Shown: in pieces, positions 7,027-42,992 of the stretch
How the letters are laid out: every line of letters starts with the position of its first letter
Numbering within the stretch: the first letter of the stretch is position 1
IMG/VR virus record: IMGVR_UViG_3300028025_002046
Location: 30,589 to 94,588 of that record
DNA: 64,000 nucleotides
Strand: one strand, 5' to 3'
DNA from: a virus
The notes under the pieces: model-generated
The model's input: the letters and a program-made list of their open reading frames with translations, nothing else
Databases searched by the model: none
What the model was told of the DNA's origin: nothing
Made by a program: the position numbers and the translations under genes

Positions 7027-7415
7027 TATGGACCACCTACTGGAGTAACGTCAGATAGAACTACGATAGTTCCAATAATTGGTGTCCAAATGGTATTCTC
7101 GTCGATAGTTACTTGAAGGTCGAAAGATAGTTCGGCGGCGACAGCATTGTAGCCAGTTCCCCAAGTAGAAGTAATTTCTGGAGTAGCTACGATATCTACA
7201 TAGCCAACTCCTGGTGTAACTACGAGTTCATCAAGAACTTCGCCTTTTGCATTATAGGCACTTGACAAATACGTCCAAGCAGATGTATCATACTTAGTAG
7301 TTTCATCGTTTTGCCAAAACTCAACACGGAGTCCAGCGGTATCACCACGGACAATCTTCCATTTAACTGGAACTGGTTCTGCACCAAAGGATTCGGGGAT
7401 AGTAGGAATGGTCAT
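7026..7415 (-). CDS. Small structural or tail protein
   Basis: 129 residues starting MTIPTIPESFGAEPVPVKWKIVRGDT. The beta-rich sequence with 'KWKIVRGDTAGLRVEFW' resembles small baseplate or upper-fibre proteins (BppU-like). I chose the ATG at 7415 rather than the in-frame GTG at 7433, because that GTG lies in the -10 element (TATAAT at 7425-7430). First gene of the leftward tail operon; its stop overlaps the next start. Confidence 0.65.
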   Translation of the reverse strand: MTIPTIPESFGAEPVPVKWKIVRGDTAGLRVEFWQNDETTKYDTSAWTYLSSAYNAKGEVLDELVVTPGVGYVDIVATPEITSTWGTGYNAVAAELSFDLQVTIDENTIWTPIIGTIVVLSDVTPVGGP

Positions 7416-38967: not shown

Positions 38968-39795
38968 TTAACCTAGTTTAGCCCAGGTCGCAGCATCTAC
39001 TACACCTGTTGCTGGAATACCGTGCTTAGTCTGGTATGCCTTTAGAGCAGCCTGTGTCTTAGGACCAAAAGCACCATCGGCAGTTACACCGATCTTAGCC
39101 TGAACCTTCTTGACAGCACCACCCTTAGAGCCAACCTTTAGAATTGGCAAAGCAGCCTTAGCAGGTGCAGGAGCGACAGGAGCCGCCTCCTTAACTACAG
39201 GAGCTTCCTTTGGAACTGCAACAGTTGGAACCTCTGGAACTGAATGAGTAGGTGCAAGAGTTGCTGGAGCATCTTCAGGAGTTGCCTTGTCAGCCTCTGC
39301 GTGAGCCTTCTCAAACTCAATGACAGCCTTGCAGAAAGCCATTGGGTCATAGTAGCCCTTACCATTGTGGAAGCCAGCCATTGGCTGCCCCTTGATGTGA
39401 CCTGCCCAGATTTCCCAGTGTAGGTGCTTACCAGTTGCGAAACCAGTCTGCCCCATCTTACCAATGATTGTGCCAGCCTCAATCTTCTGACCAACCTTGA
39501 CCTTGATCGAACCCTTAACCATGTGGAAGTAAGTCCATGTGACTTTCTTACCCATAACAGTTGACTGAACGATTACTGAGTGACCACCAGAGGTTGGTGA
39601 GTCGTTAGGCTTTACTGCGATTACCTTGCCATCTGCCCATGCTTCTAGGTAGGTGGTTTCTCCACCCTGCCAGATGTCAACACCGTTGTGGTGCTTCTTT
39701 GTCTTCTTAATTGGGTGGATTCTCCAACCAAATGGTGAAGTTACCTTCCAAGCCTTGCCTGGAACTCCATCTACTGGATATTGTGATTTTGCCAT
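38968..39795 (-). CDS. Endolysin: M23 peptidase plus peptidoglycan-binding domain
   Basis: 275 residues. The M23 lysostaphin-like domain (about 15-155) has zinc ligands H36-x3-D40 and H124-L-H126, plus H91. A Pro/Ala-rich linker (about 175-215) leads to a PG_binding_1 domain (about 218-275, GSKGGAVKKVQAKIGVTADG). It cuts peptide cross-links in the actinobacterial wall at lysis. No signal peptide, so it needs the holins. Confidence 0.9.
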   Translation of the reverse strand: MAKSQYPVDGVPGKAWKVTSPFGWRIHPIKKTKKHHNGVDIWQGGETTYLEAWADGKVIAVKPNDSPTSGGHSVIVQSTVMGKKVTWTYFHMVKGSIKVKVGQKIEAGTIIGKMGQTGFATGKHLHWEIWAGHIKGQPMAGFHNGKGYYDPMAFCKAVIEFEKAHAEADKATPEDAPATLAPTHSVPEVPTVAVPKEAPVVKEAAPVAPAPAKAALPILKVGSKGGAVKKVQAKIGVTADGAFGPKTQAALKAYQTKHGIPATGVVDAATWAKLG

Positions 39796-40423: not shown

Positions 40424-40452
40424 AGTATACCCCAAGAAGAAACGTTTGTCAA
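40424..40452 (-). promoter_or_regulatory. TTGACA-17-TATACT promoter of the tRNA genes
   Basis: TTGACA 40447-40452, TATACT 40424-40429, 14 nt before tRNA-Asn. Confidence 0.85.
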
Positions 40453-40687: not shown

Positions 40688-40716
40688 AGTATACAGCACC
40701 AGAAAGGGTTTGTCAA
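40688..40716 (-). promoter_or_regulatory. TTGACA-17-TATACT promoter
   Basis: TTGACA 40711-40716, TATACT 40688-40693; drives 40457-40657. Confidence 0.85.
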
Positions 40717-40724
40717 GGAATCTC

Positions 40725-40961
40725 TTACTTCTCCGCTGGAATGTTATCAACAAACGCCTGGTTGATTTCCTCTTCCGATAGCTCCCCATCGTTTAGGTAG
40801 CCACGAGCAAGGTCCTCAATTACGTTTGCGATACCCATTACACCTGCTAGGATAGCAGTCTGGATAACGTCAATTCCAATAACAGCACCAGCACCAATGG
40901 TGGCTAGAGCAGATACTAGGAATAGGGCAAGAATTCTCTTTGCGATTTTTGCATAGTTCAT
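40725..40961 (-). CDS. Holin-like membrane protein 1
   Basis: 78 residues. A basic start (MNYAKIAKRI), two hydrophobic segments (about 10-30 and 32-50) and an acidic tail (LSEEEINQAFVDN). The size and pattern match actinobacteriophage r1t-like holins. It adjoins a second membrane protein and lies 0.9 kb from the endolysin. Confidence 0.65.
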   Translation of the reverse strand: MNYAKIAKRILALFLVSALATIGAGAVIGIDVIQTAILAGVMGIANVIEDLARGYLNDGELSEEEINQAFVDNIPAEK

Positions 40962-41147
40962 TTATTTTTCCTCCTTATCTTTTTCTTTTTGGTTTCTAAG
41001 TGGATATGTAATCACCCATAGAACGCTAGTTCCGATGATTGCGTATCCCACAACTGTTTTTGCCGATCCTTCTAATACCAGCCAGGCTACGAACATTCCG
41101 AGGAGTGTCCATGCTTGACCAATTAGATCGTTTAAAAAATCTTTCAT
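40962..41147 (-). CDS. Holin-like membrane protein 2
   Basis: 61 residues. Two membrane helices (about 10-28 and 32-50) and a highly charged end (RNQKEKDKEEK), the classical small-holin pattern. It directly abuts 40725 and overlaps the upstream PA14 gene stop. Which of the pair forms the lesion is not decided by sequence. Confidence 0.6.
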   Translation of the reverse strand: MKDFLNDLIGQAWTLLGMFVAWLVLEGSAKTVVGYAIIGTSVLWVITYPLRNQKEKDKEEK

Positions 41148-42910
41148 TATATTTTCCTCCTTATATTTGATGTTCCACCTGATGGAGCAGATGCAGATAG
41201 TGCAGCACCTGTGGCTGCGTTTACTGCAGCACCAACAGCTACCACGGCTGTGACAACAACCTTCTTAGATTCTTCTCTTACCTTTGGAGACATATCCGCA
41301 CCAACGTTACCAATAAAGTTAATGGCATCGACTGCTGCGGATAGTCCTGGAATTGCTGCTAGGCTTTCGTCTAACTGAATATCATCTGCTTGGGCTGCTA
41401 CGAATAGGGCTTCTAGTGCCTGTTCATATTCTGGTGAGCCTTGTTCTGAATTCGCAAGAATTTCATTTGCTACAGATATAAGTTCTGTTACTTCAGCAGG
41501 GGTTAGTTCTTGCGGATCTACTGTATCTATATTTACTGGTAGTTCTGGGGTTTCTGTTGGGGTTGGCGTGATTGGTTCTGGTACCTCTGGGGTGACAGGT
41601 ATTTCTGGCTCTTCAATAGGTTTCTTGGTCTCTTCAGGCGTAGGTGTTGGCTCTCTAAAAGGTGGAATGGCTTCCAGTTCCTGTTGAGCAATGTATACGT
41701 TCTCCTGTTTATTTGTCACATCGTTAGATGCTATAACAATTATACCTGCCTTTTCTGACTGCTCAGATACGGATGTATCGTAAATCTGTTGAGCATCTTG
41801 CTCCTGTTGGGTAGATGTAGACAGATCTGCTTGTGCAGCACTTAAACTATCTTGTTTGTCATTGAGCACCACGAGTAGTTCTGGATCATTTATCATTGGG
41901 GCTGTCGCTCCTGGGACTGGTTCTTCTACATAGTATGTCTCTGTTCTGTATTTAGTTACCTCTTCGTATACCGTGACCTCTTCGTAGGTTGTTTCCGTGA
42001 TAACGCTGTTGCCTAGCCATGCAGCAGGTACAATCTGGAAGCCCTGTTCTGGTGTGTAGTAGTAAAACGATACATTGGCACCACCACCATTCTCGTAATA
42101 ATATAGTGTGAATGGGTATAGAATTCCTGCCCTAATCCAAACCTGCTGTGAGACAGATCCACCGCCACCCTTATCTCTCCAGTCATTAATCAAATCCATA
42201 CCTGCAATCGTTAGCTTTGTTCCATCATCTGCTGGAGTATAAAAAGAGTAGTAGCCGTCTGCTGGGACCATAAGGTTACCAGTAAATCTAACAATCACAT
42301 CTTCTGCGTACCAATTGTTTCCAGTTTGTAAAATGTATCCGCTGCCCCAGTTAAAGTTAATGTTTGGAACTGTGGTTGAGTATGTTGGGGTCTCTGATGC
42401 AGATGGAATAGGTGGAGCATTGTTATATCCTCTTCTGTTGAACACATCTGCCACTACGCCACCAACTACCGTTGTTGTGGTTCTAGGAACTGTAACTGTC
42501 ATTGGAATCATCTCTGTGTAGGCAACCTCTCTGGTGTAGGCTACCTGTTGTGTTGGATGTATCCAGAATGGGTCAGGTATTAGGGCTGTATCGTACTGGA
42601 GTTGTGCCGCATCTAGGGCTTCTTGTGCATTAAGTACTGCCTGTTGTTTTACCTGCTTATTTGAAATAGCATTGTTTAGTGTCTCTAAGTTGCCTGATAC
42701 CGTCAAATCTAGGGTGTGTTTCTGTGCTACCGCTTCTTCATAAGCCCTCTGTGAGGCTGTGAGGGCTTCCTGAGCAGCAGAAAGTTTAGCCTGAGCTTCT
42801 GCTACGACTAAATCGTACTCTGATCTATCCTGAGCGAGAGCAGGGAACGAGAATAGTATCGGAAGGAAGGCTAGAAATATAACTACTAATATCTTGATTG
42901 GGGTTTTAAT
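41147..42910 (-). CDS. Exported, membrane-anchored PA14-domain protein with apparent ATT start
   Basis: About 587 residues if translation begins at ATT (42908-42910). The first 26 codons then form a textbook signal peptide (basic start, hydrophobic core ILVVIFLAFLPILFSF, cleavage after PALA). No ATG, GTG or TTG lies in frame between the upstream stop (42926-42928) and residue 69, where a TTG would lose the signal. AAGGAG lies 8 nt before ATT. Domains: coiled coil (about 27-110), PA14 (about 200-300, YYSFYTPADDGTKLTIAGMD), coiled coil (about 345-410), Pro/Thr/Glu linker (about 425-470) and a C-terminal membrane helix ending NIRRKI. Probably displayed on the infected cell. Confidence 0.75.
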   Translation of the reverse strand: MKTPIKILVVIFLAFLPILFSFPALAQDRSEYDLVVAEAQAKLSAAQEALTASQRAYEEAVAQKHTLDLTVSGNLETLNNAISNKQVKQQAVLNAQEALDAAQLQYDTALIPDPFWIHPTQQVAYTREVAYTEMIPMTVTVPRTTTTVVGGVVADVFNRRGYNNAPPIPSASETPTYSTTVPNINFNWGSGYILQTGNNWYAEDVIVRFTGNLMVPADGYYSFYTPADDGTKLTIAGMDLINDWRDKGGGGSVSQQVWIRAGILYPFTLYYYENGGGANVSFYYYTPEQGFQIVPAAWLGNSVITETTYEEVTVYEEVTKYRTETYYVEEPVPGATAPMINDPELLVVLNDKQDSLSAAQADLSTSTQQEQDAQQIYDTSVSEQSEKAGIIVIASNDVTNKQENVYIAQQELEAIPPFREPTPTPEETKKPIEEPEIPVTPEVPEPITPTPTETPELPVNIDTVDPQELTPAEVTELISVANEILANSEQGSPEYEQALEALFVAAQADDIQLDESLAAIPGLSAAVDAINFIGNVGADMSPKVREESKKVVVTAVVAVGAAVNAATGAALSASAPSGGTSNIRRKI

Positions 42911-42922
42911 GTTAAGTTCTCC

Positions 42923-42942
42923 TTGTTAGAAATGTCTAACAA
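42923..42942 (-). promoter_or_regulatory. Hairpin abutting the ribosome site of the PA14 gene
   Basis: TTGTTAGA-CATT-TCTAACAA, 8-bp perfect stem directly before AGGAG; the TATAAT at 42947-42952 puts it in the leader. It could mask the ribosome site or be a repressor palindrome. Confidence 0.5.
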
Positions 42943-42961
42943 AACTATTATAACACTTTTA

Positions 42962-42992
42962 GAATAAAAGAAAAGGGCTACCGAAGTAGCCC
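42962..42992 (-). terminator. Rho-independent terminator after nrdF
   Basis: GGGCTAC-TTCG-GTAGCCC followed by TTTTCTTTTATT on the minus strand, 7 nt after the nrdF stop. The clearest terminator in the window. Confidence 0.9.

Follow-up and report, generated by a model that had tools for sequence, protein, structure and literature searches.

Among the systems closest to the one described here, infC, the gene for initiation factor 3 (IF3), starts with AUU, AUC or AUA, E. coli pcnB has an experimentally supported AUU start, and an internal AUU start in T4 gene 26 gives a shorter baseplate peptide. To our knowledge, natural AUU, AUC or AUA starts have been documented very rarely, for the most part in single bacterial genes, and we know of no leader hairpin at T4 gene 26, which is the case of a single phage. 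Experimental support also exists for the AUU start of Y. pestis rcsD-Hpt (PMC10191623), and in S. aureus the genes cvfC1 (AUU) and ccpN (AUA) combine such starts with a strong Shine-Dalgarno (SD) sequence, with about 10% of the output of AUG, or up to 30% for ccpN in rich medium (PMC13009471). In the coupled sigR-rsrA operon of Streptomyces, the GUC start of sigR is repressed by IF3, and the overlapping second product is made in excess (PMC5472188).

Here, we describe a minus-strand gene with an AUU start in the window (the whole 64,000-nucleotide stretch of DNA analyzed, drawn from a 94.6-kb virus record), which encodes an exported, stalked PA14 protein, hereafter the spike. As in the actinobacterial sigR-rsrA, the leading gene of the operon combines a rare, weak start with a strong SD and overlaps the gene behind it, whose product is probably also in excess; here the codon is AUU rather than GUC and a 5′-terminal hairpin is predicted (none is described for sigR-rsrA), whereas sigR-rsrA encodes a sigma/anti-sigma pair and is experimentally proven. 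The start codon belongs to the class rejected by IF3, as in infC, but infC encodes IF3 itself and forms a feedback loop, whereas the spike is an exported phage protein and thus offers no self-feedback. With cvfC1 and ccpN the spike gene has in common a conserved odd start and a strong SD, though these two, rcsD-Hpt and pcnB are all chromosomal bacterial genes; with T4 gene 26 the likeness lies in AUU initiation in a phage. Genes for a Dps/ferritin-like protein and a WhiB regulator are also present in the phage (window 36096–36545, 37431–37730) and fit an actinobacterial host.

Judged from sequence comparison, the AUU is a genuine start, conserved in a phage family together with the predicted 5′-terminal hairpin. 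AUU starts are known in bacteria, and a conserved phage family with such a start-hairpin module appears to be new; we found no report in the literature of the start of this spike family. Functionally, we posit conserved translational control in the form of a throttle that would hold spike levels under those of the lysis proteins encoded downstream, a reading to which we assign a probability of roughly 0.6.

The AUU start codon

The spike gene occupies 41147–42910 on the minus strand (587 residues plus stop), and its leader, read on that strand, is ...TGTTATAAT AGTTTT GTTAGA CATT TCTAAC AAGGAG AACTTAAC ATT AAA ACC CCA.... An initial annotation of the window had placed the start at this ATT (42910–42908), with AAGGAG (42919–42924) 8 nt upstream and a signal peptide in frame, and direct reading bears this out, the signal peptide being IKTPIKILVVIFLAFLPILFSFPALA|Q by inspection (residues 1–26, 42833–42910, minus strand). 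The upstream in-frame stop is TAA at 42928–42926 and, as had also been claimed, no ATG, GTG or TTG precedes residue 69, where the earliest, a TTG at 42706, falls in the stalk helix without an SD. Gene callers limited to these three codons would therefore shorten the window protein to residue 69 onward, without its signal peptide, and proteins of this kind may be mistaken for cytoplasmic ones. We scored 130 reading frames of the window by start codon and SD: the spike gene alone has a good SD leading to AUH (AUU, AUC or AUA) with no SD-supported common start close by, and the one other flag is a CTG far inside a gene that possesses an ATG.

Relatives were gathered from IMG/VR with four queries (spike, terminase, holin-like protein and the C-terminal domain of the spike), and AUH-start spike genes proved to be present in dozens of uncultured aquatic phages. 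An SD-supported start could be assigned in 84 of 93 distinct homologue reading frames, with ATT in 62, ATC in 6, ATA in 6, TTG in 5, GTG in 4 and CTG in 1, which gives an AUH start in 74 of 84, or 72 of 82 without L203 and L229, whose automatic AUH assignments look wrong on inspection. AUU initiation was thus upheld by the homologues. In the same contigs, ATG starts the terminase (TerL) in 105/106 cases, the lysin in 22/23 and the holin-like gene in 90/106. Changes from ATT to ATA and from ATT to ATC are recurrent, and ATG is absent from the hairpin clades, with none among the hairpin-bearing homologues; the tight translational control proposed initially stands only to the extent that a weak AUH is conserved and AUG is missing there. 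Outlying lineages start with TTG, GTG or ATG. A TTG start is found in L145, L147, L148, L153 and L154, in four of them directly behind an in-frame stop; it is still a weak start, and not ATG. Evolutionarily, AUH starts are spread over the tree of the C-terminal domain, where the AUH label requires 8 changes versus 15 in shuffles, with resolution limited by the short columns. This deep divergence, across which the codon class is kept together with promoter, hairpin and SD, offers many natural variants with which to test weak-start selection.

Since ATT, ATC and ATA are exactly the isoleucine codons, an internal isoleucine had to be excluded, with the true start lying upstream or being reached through a frameshift or a leader peptide. 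Many leaders do have a TTG at the hairpin base, and in L088, L098, L108 and L172 it is in frame, as an upstream start would have it. An in-frame stop, however, stands at or past the SD in 11 homologues, and in two of these (L048 and L119) immediately 5′ of the ATT; distances from promoter to AUH are spread over all three frames (35/15/15); and codon periodicity begins at the ATT, with substitutions after AUH ordered 3>1>2 by codon position (235/155/44) and no such pattern in the 9 nt before it. The SD-to-AUH spacing is constant at 5–9 nt. A conserved leader peptide or frameshift was rejected, as frames vary among leaders. We consider an internal isoleucine highly improbable, and are strongly confident that translation of the spike gene does start at AUU. 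The chance of an assembly error or a decaying gene is negligible, given the same codon class in 74 distinct contigs and an intact reading frame under codon-level constraint.

Promoter and predicted 5′-terminal hairpin

Upstream, the intrinsic terminator of nrdB (GGGCTAC-TTCG-GTAGCCC-TTTTCTTTT, 42975–42992, minus strand) separates that gene from the transcript of the AUU gene. Next comes an extended −10 promoter, TGtTATAAT (42947–42955, minus strand), which the initial annotation lacked and which explains why a hairpin is present there; the TGn element is found in 57 of 65 AUH-gene leaders. Sigma-70-type transcription usually starts at bases 7–9 past the −10 hexamer, and in 57 of the 61 leaders with TATAAT or TATACT these bases read GTT, with which the stem opens. 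The mRNA probably begins at G42940, and its predicted 5′ terminus is the hairpin GUUAGA-CAUU-UCUAAC (42925–42940, minus strand). The 8-bp palindrome that had been reported at the ribosome site is indeed there (TTGTTAGA/TCTAACAA, 42942–42923; once in the window), but the RNA stem would be 6 bp rather than 8 (42940–42935 with 42930–42925), given the probable transcript start. A block of the ribosome site by this stem is not supported, as the stem comes to an end one base ahead of AGGAG and leaves the SD unpaired. For both reasons, its halt short of the SD and its predicted place at the message 5′ end, we consider it more likely that the hairpin stabilizes or insulates the mRNA than that it blocks the ribosome site.

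Taken alone, the palindrome of the window is mildly significant, with 0.57 matches expected from shuffles at up to 3 mismatches; it is the comparison of homologues that makes it significant. Across 40 aligned leaders, 94.2% of pair cells are paired, with 29 double changes, and the fourth stem pair is A-U in 21 leaders and G-C in 19, and broken in none. The covariation score is reached by 0/500 shuffles and is higher than in slid controls, which show 22–54% pairing, and an alignment-free stem count is reached by 0/2000. Folding of single sequences gave z of about −1.1 to −1.9 in four leaders, weak enough that the case for the hairpin rests on covariation, which indicates that its pairing is conserved through compensatory change.

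The palindrome could instead be a DNA operator at which a repressor acts on the promoter. It overlaps the predicted transcription start beside a conserved promoter and would fold equally well in DNA, as an operator might; a dimeric repressor, however, would need fixed spacing, whereas the arms co-vary and their separation varies. Loops range from about 2 to 11 nt and differ in sequence, and this variable length favors RNA. The ends of the palindrome, by contrast, are fixed: it runs from +1 to one base short of the SD. A covariance model also found at most one such leader per phage across 28 sources (489 kb), none in some of these, and one in the window’s own record. Altogether we regard an operator as decidedly unlikely and retain the RNA hairpin.

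No other gene convincingly preceded by the same leader was found in the 28 sources or in the phage’s own record, no Rfam leader family was relevant or scored over its gathering threshold, and an exact search for the window’s hairpin matched in the contig of L001 only. A sub-lineage (L064, L025, L032, L152 and L158) has replaced the hairpin with a conserved leader, CATTCC...ACCCC...AGGAG, while keeping AUU; the two features are thus separable, and AUU usage does not need the hairpin. The ACCCC motif also recurs in many hairpin loops and past the SD.

The exported PA14 protein

The PA14 domain of the spike (residues 174–290, 42041–42391, minus strand) matches Pfam at 38.4 bits against a gathering cut-off of 24 (E 1.4e-9). 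An AlphaFold model (mean pLDDT 76.7; pTM 0.36, which leaves the domain arrangement uncertain) contains a helix at 29–108, long strands, the PA14 sandwich and a helix at 343–413, followed by a proline-rich linker, a helical domain, a hydrophobic helix at 550–574 and a basic tail. The conserved C-terminal domain, from residue 467, and the hydrophobic helix together span 41189–41512 on the minus strand. The spike comprises a signal peptide, a coiled-coil stalk, a PA14 head and a C-terminal anchor, and it appears to be an exported protein of sugar-binding type, in support of the initial suggestion of a PA14 protein displayed on the cell.

The nearest solved structures to the head are those of the Clostridium anti-sigma-I factor RsgI3 (PDB 6qe7) and a related Clostridium protein (6qdi), and the fold is also common to the PA14 domains of bacterial and yeast adhesins. 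RsgI factors, like the spike, hold PA14 outside a membrane, but the two Clostridium proteins share the head domain alone with it, at 24% identity, and differ in stalk, C-terminal domain and phage context. Apparent family members, at 36% identity over the alignment, are the BFVD entries named ‘PA14 domain containing protein’ from uncultured Caudovirales phage (A0A6J7WSJ6 and others). Among relatives, signal peptide and C-terminal domain are kept while the middle differs, several having PA14 and others no PA14 match, which indicates that AUU tracks the position in the operon and not the PA14 domain.

The family matched no PHROG and no NCBIfam, neither the spike nor its C-terminal domain found a match among named phages, and none of 585 pattern matches in a bacterial genome collection was a relative. 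In the nearest named phages by terminase (Streptomyces phages, at most 55% identity), the annotated stretches that we examined include neither a PA14 nor an nrd gene. The second small membrane gene has a relative in lake phage DSL-LC01, with no annotated spike beside it.

Translation of the lysis operon

The spike gene has the nrdB terminator on one side and, on the other, small membrane genes clustered with an M23/peptidoglycan-binding endolysin (38968–39795, minus strand). Its stop, TAA at 41149–41147, overlaps the ATG (41147–41145) of a 61-aa gene (40962–41147, minus strand) that has its own SD, AAGGAGG, at 41162–41156; overlap or near-contact of the two (−4 to +1) was seen in 72/96. We call this gene holin-like from its size, two hydrophobic segments and position. 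Its overlap with the spike gene agrees with the earlier placement next to holins, but its identity as a holin does not follow, as it matched no curated holin family and only weakly phrog_16956, of unknown function.

In the throttle that we propose, a strong extended −10 promoter would yield a message that folds at its outset into a short hairpin, which probably shields the 5′ end and leaves the ribosome site accessible. The good SD would recruit ribosomes that initiate poorly on AUU, because IF3 rejects codons other than AUG, GUG and UUG, as is established in bacteria, Streptomyces included; this discrimination is the likely basis of the throttle. The spike would then be made at a low level and the holin-like protein in excess from the same message, through its own strong SD and ATG despite the overlap with the spike stop. 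The few spikes made would be exported and anchored by the C-terminal helix, with the PA14 head held on its coiled-coil stalk outside the membrane. The idea that protein ratios of a lysis operon are set by IF3 discrimination becomes testable here.

Alternatively, AUU initiation may be a regulated switch, released by a late-infection shift in the balance of ribosomes and IF3 or by a phage or host factor binding the 5′ hairpin, which would time the spike and, through the gene overlap, the holin-like protein too. That the hairpin adjoins the SD in most leaders, that AUH is the class against which IF3 discriminates, and that the spike and holin-like genes overlap are all consistent with such a switch. 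The widely varying sequence and length of the loop, however, speak against a loop-binding protein, the SD is unpaired, and the holin-like gene is served by a strong SD of its own. Feedback as in infC, suggested by the initial annotation, is not supported, as the gene product is a PA14 protein, and no IF3 gene or IF3_C domain was found in the 94.6-kb phage record. We judge a switch unlikely and prefer the constant throttle.

A long shot, to which we give little credence, is that AUU and hairpin fix the dose of a spike that gates lysis, and with it a sensor-to-holin ratio. The exchangeable outer domain of the spike would sense the cell surface or surroundings, with its conserved membrane-proximal part encoded right beside the holin-like gene. 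If this were true, these phages would control lysis via an external receptor, with IF3 setting how much of it is made.

The second small membrane protein, 78 residues encoded from an ATG (40725–40961, minus strand), matches phrog_26427 (E 8e-24), whose label ‘nuclease’ is probably wrong, as the sequence resembles a membrane protein. In the region of tRNA and small genes lie two TTGACA-17-TATACT promoters with 11 of 12 matching bases (window 40688–40716 and 40424–40452). In L001, at about 7335–7390, an inverted repeat, CCCTCTCT...AGAGAGGG, encloses the corresponding promoter and has T5 behind it, with an ATG just after; this repeat is a terminator spanning a promoter.
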